Positions 887 through 9,636 of a stretch of 20,164 bases of DNA are shown one piece after another. The notes beneath the pieces are model-generated. The model made no database searches. It was not told the origin of the DNA and saw nothing but the letters and a program-made list of their open reading frames with translations. Made by a program: the position numbers and the translations under genes. Source of the stretch: a virus; IMG/VR virus record IMGVR_UViG_3300029787_000436, positions 1-20,164 of that record, one strand, 5' to 3'. Each line of letters opens with the position of its first letter. Within the stretch, counting starts at the first letter, position 1.

Positions 887-3800
887 TTAAGTATGTTGAA
901 TCTGGCTGAAATTTTCTATTTTATTTACTTCTATTAAATTATCAACCATATCTCGCATAGATTCAACATGTGATATGATAATTGAAAAGTCAAATTTTGT
1001 TCTAAAATATTCAAATAAATTTGTAACAGAAGATATATGGTCTCTATCTAAACTACCCCATCCTTCATCTATTGCTATAAAATTTGGTCTTGGTAATGCA
1101 GATACATTGATTAATGCTACACGAATAGCTAATGAAGAAATAAATCGTTCCATACCTGATGTTAATTCTAATGGCCAAAAATTATCTTCGTCATATATAA
1201 TATATCCGTTAATATTTTTACCATCTGTATTCAACACCATATTGAAATCAACAACTTGATTTAAAACATTATTTATTTCTGTTTCAATCTTTGGCAATGC
1301 TTTTTTAATTAATTCATATGGAACTCCATCACGTTTAACAGATTGTAAATAATATTCATATGCTTTATATTCTGTTTCTAATTGTTTATATGTTTCTAAT
1401 TGTTCTAAAGCAGTTTTCTTTTTAGTTTTAGCAACTTCAATTTCTCCATGATTAGATTTAATTTGATCGGTAATTGATTTCAATGTAGTTGCAATATCTG
1501 TTATTAGTCTTTTTTTAACAGTTATTTTTTTATCTATAGATTTATTATGAACTATTGCAGACTCATTCTTTCGAAATAAATCTTGTCTTTCCAAACAAGT
1601 TTCTAATTCAGACTCTTTTGTTTGCATATCACTTTCTAATACTTGTAGTTGCAATTCTTGTTTATCTAAATTATTTCTAATATCTTGTTTTTCTTGAATT
1701 TTGTCTATTTCAGTTTGTATAAGATTTAGTTTAAATTTTGAAGCACGTAGAGATTGTTCTTCCTTAAATAAATTTTTTTCTTGTATTGGAATTTGTTTTT
1801 CTGCTTCTTCGGCTTCTTTTACAAATATATTTGAAACACAATATTTACAATCTGGATCATATTCGTGATCTTTTAAATTATCTATTTTTTCTTGTAAATA
1901 TGTAAGTTCTGATTGATGTCTATGTATCCATCTAGTAGATTCTCCTATAGACTTATTAATATTGTCTTTTTTTATGTTAAGAACATTAATATCTGATTGA
2001 AAGTCATATTCTGATGCAACGTTGCATCGACTATTTAATATTTCAATTGTATCTTCTAAGTCTTCAATATCTGTTTGTAGTTCTTCAATATCTTCTTCCA
2101 AATATGTTTGTGTATCTTGTAAATCTTCAATATCAGGACCTTCATATGACATTGGTTGTTTTGATTCAATTAATTCTACAATTTCATTTTGTAATTTATT
2201 TCTTGACTCTTGAAACGCATTATCTGATTCTTCTAATTCAATAATTGTATCTTGATTTTCTATAATAATATCATCTGACTCTTTGATAATAGATCCAAAA
2301 TCTGTTTTTTTGTATTCTTTTAATTTACCAGAAGTTTCTTTTATTTCTTCTGAAGCCAAATGGTATAACTGCTCAAACACGGTAGTATCTAAAAATTGTG
2401 ATAGCAAATCTTTTCGCTCACGTTGAGACTTTTCTATAAAATTATTATTATCTGCTTGCAATGAAAATGCAGTTAAAATAAAATCATCATATGTTCCTAA
2501 ATATCTTCTAATACTTTTATTTGTATCACTTCGCTCTTCGCCATTTAAATTTTCATCTTCATTATAAAAATTAACATTAACTTTAACATGGCCATGTTTT
2601 AATGTTATGCCTTCACGTTCGATTGTATATAATTTATTATTTAATTTAAATTTAAATACGGCTTTAAATGTAGATTTTTTATTGTTTAAAACTTCTTTTG
2701 ATTTGCTTGTTTTACTGCACTTATCAAATATTGTATATGTTATTGCATCTAATAATGAAGATTTGCCAGATGCATTAGCTGCAAACAATCCTATTACATC
2801 TTTTAATTTAGAAAAGTCAATTTTATTATTTTCACCATATGAAAACATGTTATCAAATTCAAATGATACTGGATACCATGTAACATTTCTTACAGAAGAT
2901 AAAACAGGTAATTTGGAATTTATTGATCTATTAATATGACGTATTGCATCTAATTCTTTTTTATCAGCTTCAGGATGATTTTCTTCAATAAATTGTGTTA
3001 TTAAATTGTTTTGATATTCAATATCTCTAACATTACCAATAGCAATAGATCCATTCTGATTGCTTTCTATGTGATTTGCACTTCGTTGTATAGATATATC
3101 TTGAACACTGTATTTTTTTCGTATTGTTGCAATTAATTTTTTAATATCAGATGCATCAGTATCACTAAATTTAATTCGTACTCTTGGTTTTCTTGGTACT
3201 CGATGTGGAGAATTAATAATTTTTGCGTTATCTACTTCAAATGTTACATATCCATAATCATTTTGTATTTCTATGAATTCTGATGTACGATCTGGTAAGT
3301 CCCATACTAATATTCCATGATCTAATGCTTCTCCATGATTTTGTTGTATCAATGATCCAGGATATCCAATTGTTTTTTCTTGATCTAAAAATTGAGCTGG
3401 TTTATGTATATCTCCTAACAGTGTTAAATCATGTCCTGCAAATAAATCTGTTGTAACATGATCATTAGAAATTTGAAATCCTATATCAGTTTTAGCATTA
3501 TGTACAGCTCCATGATGTAAAGCTATTTTATAATGTGCATCAAAGTCTTTGGCTTGAATATAATCTTTAGGAGCAACATCAACTGCCATATGATTAAATA
3601 CAACATTTGCAAAACTAAATAATCCATTTTCTTTTATAAAATAAATGTTGTCATTATCAATAACATCTAATATTGGTGATATAGCATCTAATCTATATAA
3701 ATTATTTAAATTCATATCATGATTACCTAATATAACAATTGTAGGTATTTGAAATCCATTAAAAAATTTAGTTAACATGTTAATTAACTCCGGAGACATA

Positions 3801-3997
3801 TCTAGTTTAGAATGTACAATATCTCCAGTTACTACACAAATGCTTGAATCTGTTGCATGTTGTGCAATATGTAAAAATAATGTATCAAATACTTCTTGAT
3901 ATTCTTTATGCCTTTTTAATGTTCGGATATGAATGTCAGATACATGAAATATTTTGTCAATTGATTTGATATTTGTTTTTAATGTTTTTATTTCCAT
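887..3997 (-). CDS. Single-chain Mre11-Rad50 (SbcD-SbcC, T4 gp47-gp46) recombination nuclease
   Basis: This 1036-residue protein joins both subunits of the SbcCD/Mre11-Rad50 complex, which resects and processes DNA ends during phage recombination and replication. Residues 1 to about 360 are a metallophosphoesterase: DIH at 21-23, GD at 58-59, GNHD at 91-94, HHG at 161-163, GHD at 188-190 and GDIH at 195-198. Residues from about 372 are Rad50-like: a P-loop ending SGKSS at 410-414 (AANASGKS, with Ala where Gly is usual), long coiled coils about 550-890 with a zinc-hook CKYC at 717-720, ABC signature TSGMERF at 946-952, Walker B with D977-E978, D-loop SLD at 982-984 and H1010. In T4 the two are separate genes (339 and 560 residues), and the summed length fits a full fusion. 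The start overlaps the primase gene by 10 bases, so the two are probably translationally coupled. Confidence 0.95.
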   Translation of the reverse strand: MEIKTLKTNIKSIDKIFHVSDIHIRTLKRHKEYQEVFDTLFLHIAQHATDSSICVVTGDIVHSKLDMSPELINMLTKFFNGFQIPTIVILGNHDMNLNNLYRLDAISPILDVIDNDNIYFIKENGLFSFANVVFNHMAVDVAPKDYIQAKDFDAHYKIALHHGAVHNAKTDIGFQISNDHVTTDLFAGHDLTLLGDIHKPAQFLDQEKTIGYPGSLIQQNHGEALDHGILVWDLPDRTSEFIEIQNDYGYVTFEVDNAKIINSPHRVPRKPRVRIKFSDTDASDIKKLIATIRKKYSVQDISIQRSANHIESNQNGSIAIGNVRDIEYQNNLITQFIEENHPEADKKELDAIRHINRSINSKLPVLSSVRNVTWYPVSFEFDNMFSYGENNKIDFSKLKDVIGLFAANASGKSSLLDAITYTIFDKCSKTSKSKEVLNNKKSTFKAVFKFKLNNKLYTIEREGITLKHGHVKVNVNFYNEDENLNGEERSDTNKSIRRYLGTYDDFILTAFSLQADNNNFIEKSQRERKDLLSQFLDTTVFEQLYHLASEEIKETSGKLKEYKKTDFGSIIKESDDIIIENQDTIIELEESDNAFQESRNKLQNEIVELIESKQPMSYEGPDIEDLQDTQTYLEEDIEELQTDIEDLEDTIEILNSRCNVASEYDFQSDINVLNIKKDNINKSIGESTRWIHRHQSELTYLQEKIDNLKDHEYDPDCKYCVSNIFVKEAEEAEKQIPIQEKNLFKEEQSLRASKFKLNLIQTEIDKIQEKQDIRNNLDKQELQLQVLESDMQTKESELETCLERQDLFRKNESAIVHNKSIDKKITVKKRLITDIATTLKSITDQIKSNHGEIEVAKTKKKTALEQLETYKQLETEYKAYEYYLQSVKRDGVPYELIKKALPKIETEINNVLNQVVDFNMVLNTDGKNINGYIIYDEDNFWPLELTSGMERFISSLAIRVALINVSALPRPNFIAIDEGWGSLDRDHISSVTNLFEYFRTKFDFSIIISHVESMRDMVDNLIEVNKIENFSQIQHT

Positions 3998-4935
3998 AGT
4001 GAATCTATTTCCATTTGCATCAACTCTTCGAACGAAAATTGATACGTGTCTTGAATTTTTTCAATAATTTTTTTATATCCTAATTCATTAGGATCTTCAG
4101 AATCTAATTTTACTAAATGAACTTTTATACCTTCTCGTAAAAATATTTGGGCAATTCGTTTTGCATTTGTTAATGCATCTTGATCCAAACATATATAAAT
4201 TTCTTGTACTCCTTCTTCGATAATTTTTATTCGAAGTTTAGGATTAATCATTTTGCCAAATAATGGAATTGCATTTCTTTTTATAGTGATAGCGTCAAAT
4301 GCTCCTTCACATAATATAATAGGTTCATTCCAATTAATCAACATATCAAATCCTATAATATCTTTTGAAATTTTTGGATTCTTATGTTTATATGGATCAT
4401 TTTCATAGAATGCTCTTGATACAAAATAATTTAATTGTCCTTCGCAATCATAACTAGGAATAATAATTTTTCCAGAATATGGTCCTCTTTCAGCATATCC
4501 TATTCTATAACGAATTATATCAAATATTGATATTCCACGTTTTTGTAGATAATATATTGCATTTTTATAGTCAGGTGATTTTCTTTCCAACCAAAGTGGT
4601 TTATATTCTTCTGGTAATTGTATAGTTTCTTCAATTTGTTTTTTATTGTTTGAATTATCTCTATACTTAGTTCGTTCAATTAATTTTCCTAATTTTTCAA
4701 ATTTATCTTTTGGAAGATTTAATTGTTTGAATAATGAATGTATTGTTCTACCCTTTTTATCAGATATCCAACAATGCCATGGGTTTTGGCCTTCATGATT
4801 TGTGTTTAAATTAATTTCTAGTTTAGGCTTATAATGAGATGTAAACGGAGAAAAAAATGCAATATTATCTCCGGATGTAGGTTTACCTTTACCTAAAACA
4901 GATTCTATTAATTGAAGTAACTTAAGATTCTTCAT
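3988..4935 (-). CDS. DnaG-type DNA primase (T4 gp61-like) with degenerate zinc finger
   Basis: It makes RNA primers for lagging-strand synthesis, by family. From the chosen ATG the product is 315 residues (MKNLKLLQLIESVLG). The N-terminal region about 28-58 matches the shape of a CHC2 zinc domain (FFSPFTSHYKPKLEINL then WHCW), but the usual Cys pair is replaced, leaving only His-Cys. Next come a primase core (RGISIFDIIRYRIGY, GKIIIPSYDCEGQLNYFVSRAF) and a TOPRIM domain about 203-280: LCEGAFDAI with the catalytic Glu at 210, LDQDA with Asp 251 and 253, then DPNELGYKK. An in-frame GTG at 5002-5004 would add 23 residues, but it lies inside a hairpin and the extra residues look non-conserved, so I prefer the ATG at 4933-4935. 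Neither start has a strong Shine-Dalgarno. The gene overlaps the Mre11-Rad50 start. Confidence 0.88.
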   Translation of the reverse strand: MKNLKLLQLIESVLGKGKPTSGDNIAFFSPFTSHYKPKLEINLNTNHEGQNPWHCWISDKKGRTIHSLFKQLNLPKDKFEKLGKLIERTKYRDNSNNKKQIEETIQLPEEYKPLWLERKSPDYKNAIYYLQKRGISIFDIIRYRIGYAERGPYSGKIIIPSYDCEGQLNYFVSRAFYENDPYKHKNPKISKDIIGFDMLINWNEPIILCEGAFDAITIKRNAIPLFGKMINPKLRIKIIEEGVQEIYICLDQDALTNAKRIAQIFLREGIKVHLVKLDSEDPNELGYKKIIEKIQDTYQFSFEELMQMEIDSLWK

Positions 4936-4995
4936 ATAATTTATTATAAGAAAATTTCCTGAAAGATCAAAAGGATTGGCTATTATATAATACTG

Positions 4996-5020
4996 GTTAG
5001 ACACAATAAATTAGTCTAAC
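4996..5020 (-). promoter_or_regulatory. Perfect 7-bp inverted repeat (hairpin) at the primase leader
   Basis: GTTAGAC at 5014-5020 on the coding strand is followed by an 11-base loop and then GTCTAAC at 4996-5002, a perfect stem. The possible GTG start of the primase (5002-5004) lies at the loop-stem border, and the preferred ATG is about 60 bases downstream. It could be an RNA hairpin that hides an upstream start or binds a regulator, or a DNA operator. It has no U-tract directly after it, so it does not look like an intrinsic terminator. Confidence 0.45.
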
Positions 5021-5115
5021 GAATCATCATTTAATAAATAATTTCATTAAACGATTTCATCTTTTTATTAATTACATTAAGAAAATAATAAAAATTTTTC
5101 AAAGATCCAAATTAA
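5005..5115 (-). other. Largest gap: 111-base leader between the 127-residue gene and the primase
   Basis: It has no full gene. In transcript order it holds an A5T5 palindrome, a nine-residue mini-ORF (ATG at 5058-5060, MKSFNEIIY, stop at 5031-5033), a four-residue mini-ORF starting at 5028-5030 straight after that stop, the octamer TATTTATT, and the upstream arm of the hairpin at the primase start. The mini-ORFs may be chance in AT-rich DNA. With the hairpin they could form a leader controlling primase translation, which is speculation. Confidence 0.35.
5033..5040 (-). promoter_or_regulatory. Gap octamer TATTTATT before the primase
   Basis: The coding strand reads TATTTATT in the primase leader, 28 bases before the possible GTG start and about 97 before the preferred ATG. 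It also overlaps the end of a nine-codon mini-ORF, so the match may be incidental. Confidence 0.22.
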
Positions 5116-5499
5116 TTATATAAAATTTAAATTTAAAGCTTTCATCAATTTTACTAATTTTGGATATAATTCATTATAACGTTTAGGTGCCAAAGATTTT
5201 ATTAATTTTTTCATTATTTTATTATCTACTGGTTCTGGATTCTCTGGTATCAATATTTTAATTATTGGAATTAAGTCTTCTGTAGATTCTAATGCTCCTA
5301 ATACAGTTTCAGCAGCTTCGTCTGATCCTCCTAGATCGTTAACTAACGTTTTTGATTTTTGTAACATTTTATTAGGATCTTTTTCTAATATTATGTCTTT
5401 AATCTTATTTTTTCGAAAAGCTAATTTTGTTATATCAAAAACTCCTTCTTTAAGATTTTTTGTGCGAAATCTTTGCATATTTTCTTGTAATTTATTCAT
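5116..5499 (-). CDS. Small conserved-looking phage protein, unknown function (127 residues)
   Basis: I do not recognise a function. The N-terminus MNKLQENMQRFRTKNLKEG is basic and amphipathic and resembles, from memory, the start of several small proteins in marine T4-like phages. The rest is predicted helical: lysine-rich DITKLAFRKNKIKDII near residue 22, an acidic stretch ending in TEDLIPIIKILIPENPEP, then a basic helical C-terminus. There is no signal peptide or membrane segment and no cysteine. It lies between the secreted DUF4294 gene and the primase, with a 33-base gap upstream that holds the recurrent octamer and no clear Shine-Dalgarno. A DNA-binding, internal head or scaffold-like role is possible but unsupported. 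Confidence 0.75.
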   Translation of the reverse strand: MNKLQENMQRFRTKNLKEGVFDITKLAFRKNKIKDIILEKDPNKMLQKSKTLVNDLGGSDEAAETVLGALESTEDLIPIIKILIPENPEPVDNKIMKKLIKSLAPKRYNELYPKLVKLMKALNLNFI

Positions 5500-5532: not shown

Positions 5533-6093
5533 CTATATAATAAAATCTTGTATTATTTCTTCAATCAAAGAATCATCACCATGCTTATCATATGACTTTT
5601 TTAAATTGGTACCACATATTCTAGCAAACTGCTGATACCCCCATGCTACGAATCCGTTTCGTAAATCTTTTACTAATATGTATCCTGTTCTAGAACATTC
5701 ACGATCAATTAATTTAATTAACAATTGTCCTTCAAAAACAGTTAATCGTTTCATGTCTTTATCAAATTCAGCTTTTATTTGATCTTCAACAAGTTTATAA
5801 TATTTTTTAGAATTAACATTTCTTTGTTCTTCTGACATAGCCGCAAGTTGCATTTCACATTCTTTCAATCGCTGTCCTGCTATTTTGGCATATGGATATA
5901 CTTTTTGAACTTTTGCAACTAATTTATAATATCGATTTTTACTTCTATTATTTTTAAAAGTTCTAAATGTAAACTCAGGCAATTGACCACTGTTGTAAAC
6001 ATGATTACAAGGATTACCTAATGCGTCTACACATTGACTAAAATTTGCATTAGAAAATAAAATTGTTAATGCTAATACTATACACTTTTTCAT
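5533..6093 (-). CDS. Secreted DUF4294 family protein
   Basis: The 186-residue product begins with a typical signal peptide (MKKCIVLALTILFSNANFSQ), with probable cleavage near residues 18-20, so it should be exported to the periplasm. The mature part matches DUF4294 as I remember it: YYKLVAKVQKVYPYAKIAGQRL at 55-76, KRLTVFEGQLLIKLIDRE at 115-132, then GYILVKDLRNGFVAWGYQQFARICGTNLKKSY. The family is known to me as Bacteroidota-specific and has no established biochemical role. The Cys after the signal (FSQC) is not a good lipobox. In a phage this is either a gene taken from the host or a phage factor acting on the cell envelope. It follows the endonuclease gene by 50 bases and ends with TAG. The family call is from motif memory and should be checked by profile search. 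Confidence 0.85.
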   Translation of the reverse strand: MKKCIVLALTILFSNANFSQCVDALGNPCNHVYNSGQLPEFTFRTFKNNRSKNRYYKLVAKVQKVYPYAKIAGQRLKECEMQLAAMSEEQRNVNSKKYYKLVEDQIKAEFDKDMKRLTVFEGQLLIKLIDRECSRTGYILVKDLRNGFVAWGYQQFARICGTNLKKSYDKHGDDSLIEEIIQDFII

Positions 6094-6143
6094 ATCTATA
6101 TTTTTTCTTTATAATAAGAAATTAATATGAAAAATCCAATCGT

Positions 6144-6617
6144 TTAATTGAAAAATTTTATTAAAGTTGGATCTTCGCCTTCTTTGCAACATTCTTGTAA
6201 CCATTCAGTTGGCATATCTTTTTTTGCAACATGTTGTATACCTAATTTTTTTGCATATGCTTCATATGTTGTTTTAGATCCTTTTGATATTTTTTGATTT
6301 GGATTCTGAAAAATTATTCGTAAATCTATATTAGGATTTGAAGCTAATACATTTTTCATTTTTTGTCTATCAGTACTAGTCCATCTACCTTTAGTTTCAA
6401 TATACATTGTTTTACCGTCTTTTTTTGTGAAAATAAAATCTGGAGTATATTTTGAATTTTTTTGAGGAACTATGTAATGCAATGTTTCTTTTTCGTAATT
6501 TACTGGATATTTTGCCTCTTTTATTTGATCTGCTACTTTTAATTCTAATCCAGATCTATATCCATATTTGTACGCCGCTTGGCGTTGTTTATTATTGGAA
6601 TGCCAATGATTCTTCAT
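6144..6617 (-). CDS. T7 endonuclease I-type Holliday junction resolvase
   Basis: The 157-residue product should resolve branched DNA before packaging and may help degrade host DNA. It matches phage endonuclease I (T7 gp3, 149 residues) along its length: GYRSGLELKVADQI at 19-32 with catalytic E25, then YEKETLHYIVP, KYTPDFIFTKKDG with D60, and MYIETKGR with E74 and K76. These correspond to E20, D55, E65 and K67 of T7. They are followed by a basic stretch, IIFQNPNQKISKGSKTTYEAYAKKLG, and a terminal PTEWL motif. All active-site residues are present, so it should be active. It follows the peptidase gene by 11 bases with an AAGG Shine-Dalgarno 8 bases before ATG. T4 itself uses an unrelated resolvase (gp49), so the T7-type enzyme is a mosaic trait. 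Confidence 0.95.
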   Translation of the reverse strand: MKNHWHSNNKQRQAAYKYGYRSGLELKVADQIKEAKYPVNYEKETLHYIVPQKNSKYTPDFIFTKKDGKTMYIETKGRWTSTDRQKMKNVLASNPNIDLRIIFQNPNQKISKGSKTTYEAYAKKLGIQHVAKKDMPTEWLQECCKEGEDPTLIKFFN

Positions 6618-6628
6618 GTTATAACCTT

Positions 6629-7471
6629 TTAACTTTCTAATTGTTTTAGAAATTTTCTTCTTTGTTTTGTAAATTTAGGACTATTAAATGCTTTTTCATT
6701 TTTTAATCCTATGTGTATATGATCATAATGCTTCTCTGATCTCCATATTACTTGTATTCTAAATCCACCACTTCTTCTATTAAAGACCCCGCCTTGGCCA
6801 TCTTTAGGTAGAGGTATTTTTAATGCTGTCATAAGACCTTTAAATATTTGATCGCCTAGCTCATCTCCTATTACATCACCTGAAACATGTATGCCTCCTT
6901 TTTGTAATCCAATATCTATGCCAAATGCAGCATGATTTCCTTGCCAATGATCACTTATATTGTCACCCTTAGCATATATGTCTTCTCGTTTTGCTGAATT
7001 GATTCGTATAGTATCTTTTAACGGTGCTAAAAAATTTAATAAAGATGATTTTGTTTGAGCATAATCTCCATCAATCTCAGAATCTTGTTTATATAAACCA
7101 CCAGTCGAAAATCCAGGAACACCAGGTTTTAACGTCTTATCTGAAGTAATTCGCATAGGGCTTAATTTTTTTACAATATTTTTAGGAACTTCTTTCATTG
7201 CTTGATCAACATCATCTGTTGGAGAATATTTTGTTGTATCATCATTAGATTGATCCTCACTATTTTTTGGATCAGTTAGAAATTTTATTATGTTCTGTCT
7301 AGTTTTTTCTTTTTGTGCATCAGCAGCTTTTTGAAGTTTTTCTAATTCATCAGGTGGCGTTTCAATTTTACTGTATCGGTAAGTTTGTTGTTCTGGTAGT
7401 AAAATATGATCTAATAGTAAACTGTAATATTCTTCTAATATTATTTGTTTTATATATTTTTTCGAATCCAT
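6629..7471 (-). CDS. M15/LAS-type peptidoglycan peptidase (lysin or tail-associated)
   Basis: The C-terminal half of this 280-residue protein carries a zinc-peptidase pattern of the M15/D-Ala-D-Ala (LAS) group: SDHWQGNHAAFGIDIG at 173-188, with H175 or H180 and D186 as likely ligands, and W243 followed by HYDHIHIG at 248-255 with the HxH pair. That suggests cleavage of peptide links in the cell wall. Residues 1-160 are a charged helical and then low-complexity region with no signal peptide or membrane span. The N-terminus (KKYIKQIILEEYYSLLL) resembles the basic amphipathic starts of the kinase-like gene upstream. It could be an endolysin needing a holin, or a virion peptidase used at entry. 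Its place after tail genes permits either. There is no visible Shine-Dalgarno: the 12-base gap is TATTTATATAAA. Confidence 0.8.
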   Translation of the reverse strand: MDSKKYIKQIILEEYYSLLLDHILLPEQQTYRYSKIETPPDELEKLQKAADAQKEKTRQNIIKFLTDPKNSEDQSNDDTTKYSPTDDVDQAMKEVPKNIVKKLSPMRITSDKTLKPGVPGFSTGGLYKQDSEIDGDYAQTKSSLLNFLAPLKDTIRINSAKREDIYAKGDNISDHWQGNHAAFGIDIGLQKGGIHVSGDVIGDELGDQIFKGLMTALKIPLPKDGQGGVFNRRSGGFRIQVIWRSEKHYDHIHIGLKNEKAFNSPKFTKQRRKFLKQLES

Positions 7472-7483: not shown

Positions 7484-8029
7484 TTACCAATCTATCATTA
7501 CAAGGTTTCCATTCCATTTCATTATGTTGTCTGGTTTGAAATCTATTGTTTGATCTAAATCTCCAATATTGGTTTTTCTAACTTGTTGTTGTAAAGCTCG
7601 TAAAAAATTAATTAATTTTGCAGAATAATTTCTTGTTTCTTCTGTATCTAGATAATTAAATACAGTTACATTAGGACCTTCTTGTCTCATGTAATTTTTA
7701 AATCCTTGATAAAACATTTCCAATTCTTTTTTTTCTCCATCAGATAATTGATCTGCTTTATTTAAGATATACATATTTTTAGTATCATGACTATAATGTA
7801 CAGGAATAAATGCATTAAATTCTCCAAATCTTCCAACAATAACATCTGCTACGGCTTTTTCATCTGGCTCTGTTGTTGTTTTAAATAGCAAATCTTCTCC
7901 GTCAATTTCATAAACTTTTCCATTATCGCCACTATCTAAAAATTTAAATTGTTTGTTTTTAATTTTAGATAACAATTGATCTGATCTATCAATACTTATT
8001 TCATTTATTATTTTTTTAAGTTTAATCAT
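7484..8029 (-). CDS. Minimal protein-kinase-like protein ending at the DFG-type aspartate
   Basis: The 181-residue product fits a protein-kinase fold. FLDSGDNGKVYEI at about 30-42 resembles the Gly-rich loop, LLFKTT at 47-52 supplies the ATP-anchoring Lys (K50), and IDFKPDNIM at 162-170 matches the catalytic loop HRDLKPENI with Asp, Lys and Asn kept (D163, K165, N168) but His-Arg lost. The final VMIDW puts the metal-binding Asp (D180) one residue from the end. The activation segment and large C-lobe of ordinary kinases are absent. Related short kinase-like proteins occur, as I recall, in marine T4-like phages. The start is the ATG at 8027-8029, which shares its A with the TGA of the fibre gene and has GGAGG 6 bases upstream; a TTG one codon earlier is less likely. 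The N-terminus MIKLKKIINEI is basic and amphipathic. Confidence 0.72.
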   Translation of the reverse strand: MIKLKKIINEISIDRSDQLLSKIKNKQFKFLDSGDNGKVYEIDGEDLLFKTTTEPDEKAVADVIVGRFGEFNAFIPVHYSHDTKNMYILNKADQLSDGEKKELEMFYQGFKNYMRQEGPNVTVFNYLDTEETRNYSAKLINFLRALQQQVRKTNIGDLDQTIDFKPDNIMKWNGNLVMIDW

Positions 8030-9636
8030 CAATATCCTCCTCCACCTCCAGAACTTACAACAGTTGTAGTTGCAACAGGAACAGAAATAGTTGGAGTTGA
8101 TGTTGTGGCCACATTATTTGTTGTTTGCAAACTTCCGGTTGATTCAATGAATATTGGTCTTTTAACATCTAAATCTAATCGCACAAAGAAATTCATATCG
8201 ACATCAGATCGCTTTTTAATAGGTTGTCCTAGTTTTGCAACTGCTAACAATTGTCCTAATGAATCATATAATCCAATCGTTGTTATATATGGTGAAAAAT
8301 TACTTCCTGTTAAATAATTTAAATACCTCGTATTATCTTCTGTTAATACCGAATGATTTCTAGTTACATTAAATTCTCCAGATCTAACTCTACACAATGT
8401 TGACATTTCATATGATGTAATAGTACTTTGGTAACTTGCAGTATATTGTGATGTTATTAAGTTGTTATATCGATAATCAGGTGTTGATATTACAATGAAT
8501 CCTTTTTTATCAAAAACTTGTCCTACTACATTAGTTTGCAACATTCCTCCACCCTCGTTACGATCCTTTAACGTGCTTATTTCGGATGTTGTTAACGCTT
8601 TATTATAAATTCTAATTTCATCTAGATATCCTTGTAAACTAGATGTATTGGCGCCATATCCGCCTATCTTCAGTGAAGATGTATTAGATATATTTACTGG
8701 ATGTGTAATATAGGTATTTAAATTATCATTTAATTCTGAAAAGCTTTCTGTTGAATGTCTTGTGCCATTTATATATATTTGTAATTCACTACCTGTTTTT
8801 TGACATATAATATGATTCCAAGAAGAAGATACTTCTGTAGATGAAGAAATAAATGATTCTTGTATACCTGTACCAAATCCTAACTTTAATTGATTGCTTC
8901 CACTTAATTCTATTTTAAATGGATATTGTTGTTGTGTGTAATTTAATTTACCTAATATTAATTCATCAGAAGTTGTATTATTTCCTCCAGATATAAAAAA
9001 TGATATTGCATAATCATGTTGTTTGTCATAACTACCATTTATTGTTGTTTCAATATAACCAGTTCCAGAAAATAATGCAGATAATCCAATTGGCAACTGC
9101 GATCCATTAGATGTAGTTACTCCATCAACATATGTTATATTTTCAATATTTGTATATTTTATATATCTTGTATTAAAATAATTATTAAATCCTTCATAAA
9201 AGTCTAATGTATCTGGAAATGATCCTGTAACTATATTTGTGTCATAAATAACGCCATTTCTTGTTGATGCTAAATTCAAGGATCCGCTAGAATAAGTAAA
9301 TGAATCTGATTTAATTTTTTGTCCCATTTTCTTTTGCGGGATACTAAAAATAGAAGATGTTTGATATAATACACTATTTTCATGTTTGTAAAATAATTGA
9401 TCAATTGATTTAAATATTATATTTTTAAAACTATCGTCAATATTTTTCTCACCAGTTGTATATGTTTGTGGAATAGTTGCCGAATAATATGCTTGTAAAG
9501 GAGTATATTCATCAGTACTACCAGATAGTAGTGTAAACGTTTTATTAAGTTGCATTGGATTAAATTTTAAATCAGAAGACTTAATTTTTTTAAACGCTTT
9601 TACTGTTTCACCAGGATAATTAGAAATTGTCGACAT
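8029..9636 (-). CDS. Tail fibre or baseplate adhesin with LamG/concanavalin-like domain
   Basis: This 535-residue protein likely sits at the tail tip and binds the cell surface. Residues 1-165 form an N-terminal part (YPGETVKAFKKIKSSDLKF, later PDTLDFYEGFNNYFNTRYIKY). About 180-355 is a LamG-type beta-sandwich: GTGYIETTIN, SSWNHIICQKTGSELQIYINGTR and SLQGYLDEIRIYNKALTTSEI are its usual landmarks. Residues about 368-492 (NVVGQVFDKKGFIVIS, ITTIGLYDSLGQLLAVAKLGQPIKK) are a conserved phage tail module also found at the end of the neighbouring 367-residue protein. The tail is Thr/Pro-rich and ends in SSGGGGGY; those Gly codons also form the Shine-Dalgarno of the kinase-like gene. The LamG domain appears inserted between conserved flanks. 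Its role in receptor binding is inferred. Confidence 0.85.
   Translation of the reverse strand: MSTISNYPGETVKAFKKIKSSDLKFNPMQLNKTFTLLSGSTDEYTPLQAYYSATIPQTYTTGEKNIDDSFKNIIFKSIDQLFYKHENSVLYQTSSIFSIPQKKMGQKIKSDSFTYSSGSLNLASTRNGVIYDTNIVTGSFPDTLDFYEGFNNYFNTRYIKYTNIENITYVDGVTTSNGSQLPIGLSALFSGTGYIETTINGSYDKQHDYAISFFISGGNNTTSDELILGKLNYTQQQYPFKIELSGSNQLKLGFGTGIQESFISSSTEVSSSWNHIICQKTGSELQIYINGTRHSTESFSELNDNLNTYITHPVNISNTSSLKIGGYGANTSSLQGYLDEIRIYNKALTTSEISTLKDRNEGGGMLQTNVVGQVFDKKGFIVISTPDYRYNNLITSQYTASYQSTITSYEMSTLCRVRSGEFNVTRNHSVLTEDNTRYLNYLTGSNFSPYITTIGLYDSLGQLLAVAKLGQPIKKRSDVDMNFFVRLDLDVKRPIFIESTGSLQTTNNVATTSTPTISVPVATTTVVSSGGGGGY
8036..8040 (-). promoter_or_regulatory. Ribosome binding site GGAGG that sets the kinase-like gene start
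   Basis: GGAGG on the coding strand lies 6 bases before the ATG at 8027-8029. It lies within the last Gly codons of the fibre gene, so the poly-Gly C-terminus and the next gene's ribosome binding site are the same DNA. This is the strongest Shine-Dalgarno in the window and favours the ATG over the TTG one codon earlier. Confidence 0.75.

Follow-up and report, generated by a model that had tools for sequence, protein, structure and literature searches.

Introduction

Host-derived accessory genes are a known kind of phage cargo. Phage morons and other accessory inserts are extra genes lodged between two core genes, with a leader copy of their own and a patchy distribution in close relatives. 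The internal proteins of T4 are diverse apart from a short N-terminal capsid targeting sequence that they have in common (PMC3012670), and some are injected into the host, where they counteract its enzymes (PMC3012670; PMC7697877). On the bacterial side, Bacteroidota chromosomes encode secreted DUF4294 proteins, a family that no paper found in our literature search names; in one flavobacterial family, the gene is near-universal and single-copy.

We analyzed a virus record of 20,164 bases (hereafter the window) in which a DUF4294 gene and a 127-aa ORF form an insert that shares with morons its position between two core genes, its leader copy and its patchiness in close relatives. Unlike morons, it sits in a T4-like backbone without sign of a prophage, its GC content equals that of the phage (0.28), and its leader is a candidate sigma-70 promoter at most. 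The phage DUF4294 protein resembles its chromosomal counterparts in having a full helical core, a predicted signal peptide and all family-invariant residues. In contrast to them, the phage clade lacks most of the GDTIP...V.V segment and is about 30-44% identical to host proteins, and its gene belongs to a phage cassette instead of occupying a chromosomal site such as that downstream of tig-clpP-clpX. The optional, patchy two-gene insert and the shortened, altered version of the host protein go beyond the initial annotation, and neither the loss of the N-terminal segment nor the tag on the partner had been expected. Although the kind of gene is known, this DUF4294 variant is new.

A DUF4294 gene in a tailed-phage contig

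The window carries genes for a baseplate wedge protein (T4-type baseplate), endonuclease I, primase and an SbcC-like protein, as identified with PHROGs. It is a genuine tailed-phage contig, and an origin from chromosomal DNA does not apply. The ORF of interest starts with ATG, and its assignment to DUF4294 in the initial annotation was confirmed by a profile search, in which it scored 148.5 bits against the curated PF14127 cut-off of 27 bits. The match spans residues 44-182, corresponding to profile positions 17-154 of 155. The gene had been described as a full-length copy, which is right for the complete core but slightly wrong for the N-terminal end, where profile positions 1-16 are unmatched and the segment described below is largely deleted. 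Likewise, its placement inside a replication/nuclease island holds approximately: the gene lies between endonuclease I and primase, but head-cargo-like genes are found on the other side (Table 1).

Table 1. Features of the DUF4294 insert and of its surroundings in the window.
Feature	Coordinates	Strand	Basis
DNA primase, downstream flank of insertion site	3988..4935	-	PHROG 47, E=3.5e-32
Second leader copy TTGGATCTTT..., after insert, before primase region	5057..5110	-	copy present in empty-site relatives
127-aa ORF, second gene of insert, always with DUF4294	5116..5499	-	in 5/5 filled contigs, absent from empty ones
N-terminal tag MNKLQENMQRFRTKNLKEG of 127-aa ORF, capsid-targeting-like, LxE at end	5443..5499	-	best conserved block of divergent copies; tag shared with unrelated proteins in L180-L184
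DUF4294 gene, 186 aa, first gene of insert	5533..6093	-	PF14127, E=1.9e-43; same slot in 4 other viral contigs
Residues 35-44 (SGQLPEFTFR) of DUF4294, site of missing GDTIPxxxLxxVxV	5962..5991	-	alignment of 77 copies; strands there in host model
Putative Sec signal peptide of DUF4294, residues 1-19, cleavage between S19 and Q20	6037..6093	-	sequence inspection; hydropathy peak; host homologues mostly end in AQ
Insert leader TTGGATTTTT...TTTCTTATTATAA...	6094..6139	-	sequence comparison; box at 6130-6139
Endonuclease I (T7 gp3-type), upstream flank of insertion site	6144..6617	-	Pfam PF05367, E=5e-34; PHROG 945
Accessory gene, M15-like motif (SDH...GID...DHIHIG), IILEEY N-terminal tag	6629..7471	-	motif; relatives fused to baseplate-like or peptidoglycan-binding-like stretches

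The DUF4294 protein likely carries a Sec signal peptide, in agreement with the initial annotation. By inspection, its N-terminus (MKKCIVLALTILFSNANFS followed by QC) has a positively charged start, hydrophobicity over the whole protein peaks in the 11-mer at residues 4-14 (Kyte-Doolittle 2.75), and the predicted S-Q junction is of the type found in most host homologues (...AQ). Searches of Pfam, NCBIfam, PADLOC, PHROG and PDB (by sequence and profile) assigned neither this protein nor the 127-aa partner to any other family.

The distribution of the family points to the host. Of 14 control genomes, only that of a Bacteroides contained PF14127, and an evenly drawn phylum sample of 99 genomes yielded 20 with the family. 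When the family of Lacinutrix was searched with the window protein, 140 of 149 genomes had a single DUF4294 copy, 33-44% identical to the query. Furthermore, the cultured phages nearest to the window by primase include Flavobacterium phage immuto. These observations support the prediction, already made in the initial annotation, that the phage infects Bacteroidota. In about 20 of 80 chromosomal loci (L013-L092), DUF4294 directly follows tig-clpP-clpX, neighbors being identified by reading their sequences; this adjacency is a possible clue to a protein-quality role.

DUF4294 and its partner form an optional cassette

A search with the neighboring endonuclease I returned 68 contigs, and both endonuclease I and primase were visible at 66 loci. 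The site is empty in 59 of 64 related contigs, where endonuclease I is directly followed by primase with a spacing of 168-199 bp. It is filled at seven loci, representing five distinct contigs including the window, with a spacing of 1211-1265 bp. All filled contigs have DUF4294 followed by the 127-aa ORF, and the DUF4294 copies of the other four are 72-82% identical to that of the window. On a tree of endonuclease and primase, the filled state requires at least three gains or losses, of which well-supported branches force two. L005, which is filled, is nested among empty relatives that are up to 97% identical. Given the coexistence of empty and filled sites and the patchy distribution on the phage tree, DUF4294 and the 127-aa ORF constitute an optional mobile accessory cassette. 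Empty sites in close relatives also led us to reject DUF4294 as a core phage gene.

A leader of the form TTGGATYTTT...TTTCTTATTATAA stands ahead of DUF4294 and again between the insert and the primase region. Promoter-like sites were no commoner than expected by chance, and no terminator was found at the insert. Since the insert shares the GC content of the phage, either it was captured long ago or the gene has adapted.

The phage protein is a host-derived variant under selection

Phage DUF4294 is host-derived. Whether phage copies form a clade of their own was a question raised by the initial annotation; for the marine lineage they do, as the four distinct copies group together (SH-aLRT 100), and their stem measures about one change per site. 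The host sequences nearest to this clade shifted with the rows included in two tree builds. Scanning genome contigs for exact peptides taken from the window protein revealed no close bacterial copy of the phage form.

In an alignment of 77 copies, from which L169 was left out, the segment GDTIPxxxLxxVxV is largely deleted in all four marine phage copies. The jumbo-phage copy described below (L096) and nearly all the remaining 72 aligned copies retain this segment, which is usual in the DUF4294 family and lies outside Pfam's definition. Conversely, the seven columns that are invariant over 76 sequences, phage copies included (P67, G122, L125, K127, L128, R131 and A150), are all kept in the window protein. 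Three cysteines, Cys79, Cys133 and Cys160, are invariant in the marine phage clade and mostly absent from hosts, Cys133 also being present in 7 of 71 hosts.

The host structure model (pLDDT 81.7) places two strands in the segment, as a hairpin ahead of the helices, and the phage model (pLDDT 78.1) is without those N-terminal strands. Neither model had a usable match in fold searches of PDB (best E 1.3 and 0.38), and a BFVD search yielded none either (best E 0.63). The best VIA-align hit was to the helical hairpin of Wzc; its Z of 6.8 over 75 residues is a value that helical models can attain through common arrangement. As judged from these models, both of middling quality (pLDDT 78 and 82), the DUF4294 fold appears to have no clear relative among solved or viral structures.

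One explanation for a phage-borne copy is that the phage adds to the supply of a host envelope factor that runs short during infection. Retention of every family-invariant residue would fit such a supplement, as would the jumbo-phage copy, which is of the unshortened host type. However, the marine clade has lost a conserved segment and has three invariant cysteines mostly absent from hosts, which is unlike a plain replacement, and we regard supplementation as unlikely.

We also observed that the marine phage DUF4294 genes have dN/dS values of 0.25-0.39 (about 0.3 over dS 0.4-0.6), indicating purifying selection; for comparison, informative pairs of endonuclease genes gave 0.11-0.13. That only two lineages were found in 2.9 million contigs is the kind of rarity expected if the gene were passenger DNA without benefit. 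Nevertheless, the dN/dS values and a reading frame intact in all phage copies make this very improbable.

A possible mode of action

We tentatively propose, with a probability of about 0.4, that the marine Bacteroidota phage carries on its mobile two-gene cassette a host-derived, exported and altered competitor of the host's single-copy DUF4294. The phage protein would be made in the infected cell and then exported through Sec to the periplasm, export being judged by eye, where it would replace or compete with the host's own protein. Because the core is kept and the N-terminal segment is lost, it may bind the same core partner through the helical core with all its invariant residues and fail to make the N-terminal contact. 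A role in the host envelope through phage exclusion, wall change or help with lysis was suggested in the initial annotation; in the proposed scheme, an envelope process would be altered in the phage's favor, with competitors blocked or wall breakdown eased. Of these effects, superinfection exclusion would come most naturally to a gene that is optional and mobile. An altered DUF4294 kept under selection by a phage would mark the protein as a point of phage action on the Bacteroidota envelope. As a small natural variant without the N-terminal segment, the phage copy also offers a way to probe what this protein, conserved in an abundant phylum, does.

The 127-aa partner carries a capsid-targeting-like tag

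The first 19 residues of the 127-aa ORF (MNKLQxNMxRFxTKNLxEG) are its best conserved part, and the rest diverges fast (dN/dS 0.55-1.06). Profile searches, including Pfam and PHROG, gave no family match for this ORF. The same tag, with LxE at its end, heads unrelated proteins in other phage contigs. Like T4 internal proteins, the partner thus has a short conserved N-terminal tag with LxE that is common to unrelated, fast-evolving proteins. Unlike them, its tag is that of these marine phages and not that of T4, and packaging and cleavage are predicted from the tag. Since the tag pattern matches that of T4 internal proteins, the partner is most likely a head-packaged protein, by analogy.

The partner bears on an alternative reading, superinfection exclusion, in which exported DUF4294 would coat or modify an outer-membrane or periplasmic step that other phages need, and the tagged partner would protect or disarm at the next infection. 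An optional, patchy cassette with a fast-evolving tagged protein fits what one would expect of genes directed at other phages or at the host, and in T4, too, internal proteins are diverse with only the targeting sequence conserved (PMC3012670). PADLOC, however, gave no match, which counts against exclusion. So does the absence of DUF4294 members among the exclusion proteins known to us, namely T4 Imm and Sp, and lipoproteins. Overall, we consider this reading rather unlikely. A paired weapon, in which DUF4294 made in the infected cell would mimic a conserved Bacteroidota envelope protein in the periplasm and a fast-evolving, head-packaged partner would be injected at the next infection, both acting on the same host envelope pathway, appears improbable.

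The two genes upstream of endonuclease I are also headed by tags (IILEEY and IINEI) that resemble the partner's. The first of them, the M15-like gene, had no match in Pfam or PDB. A second variable slot (window 6629-7471 and 7484-8032; L002:3525-5457; L159:1501-3987; L161:3104-3988; L142:1389-3978) lies between the 182-aa ORF and endonuclease I, and different tagged (IILEEY/ILLEA-like) proteins occupy it. Some of these are M15-like or have a weak peptidoglycan-binding match, and the tagged proteins of this slot are possibly head-delivered wall enzymes.

A second phage lineage carries a host-like DUF4294

Pattern-based scans of 2.9 million viral contigs, which fragmentary or very divergent copies could escape, revealed only two phage DUF4294 lineages. 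The second one is unrelated to the marine lineage and comprises L096, a jumbo phage contig (IMGVR_UViG_3300031857_024884), and L097 (203 and 48 kb, respectively), with a 205-aa gene of the host-like, unshortened form. Both lineages have a phage-borne, putatively secreted DUF4294, yet the L096 protein differs in its unrelated neighborhood, its host-like N-terminus and its 35% identity. A common origin of the marine clade and the L096 copy was neither supported nor rejected (AU p 0.81). Since the L096 lineage keeps the GDTIP segment, loss of this segment is not needed for phage use.

Within 6.5 kb of the L096 DUF4294 gene are genes for an SLT transglycosylase (2e-17), a C92 YiiX-like amidase (1e-35) and an M54-like protease. 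This neighborhood, together with the M15-like gene two genes upstream of DUF4294 in the window, would suit a lysis or wall helper, DUF4294 aiding peptidoglycan-cutting enzymes by timing or easing wall breakdown. Against such a helper, L005 has the cassette without the M15-like gene, the head-cargo-like tag of that gene makes it look more like an entry enzyme than a lysin, and most relatives must lyse without the cassette. We therefore find this role decidedly unlikely. The case of L005 also made us abandon a link between DUF4294 and the M15-like gene.

The region L096:3237-14879 around DUF4294 is a cluster of secreted envelope enzymes. It contains glycosyltransferase-like genes, and the M54-like and C92 YiiX-like products are lipoproteins.

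Other observations

Three further records were examined as mobile elements and set aside. MT839712.1 (L006, 'Bacteriophage sp.', from faeces) looks chromosomal, with ABC transporter, FtsX-like and glycerophosphodiesterase (GDPD) genes, and is probably mislabelled as a phage. Two putative plasmids, L010 and L012 (NZ_OY725921.1 and NZ_OY725801.1), look like chromosome fragments, with leuS, nadA and other housekeeping genes.

At about 4995-5022 of the window, the long leader of the primase contains an inverted repeat (GTTAGAC...GTCTAAC) that is also found in most of the empty-site relatives compared. Finally, positions 887-3997 encode an SbcD/Mre11-type phosphoesterase and an SbcC/Rad50-type ATPase in one 1036-aa protein, equivalent to a fusion of T4 gp47 and gp46. 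Microcystis phage Mel-JY01 has a full-length relative that is 40% identical, and the 484-kb record LR756508 contains a further one.
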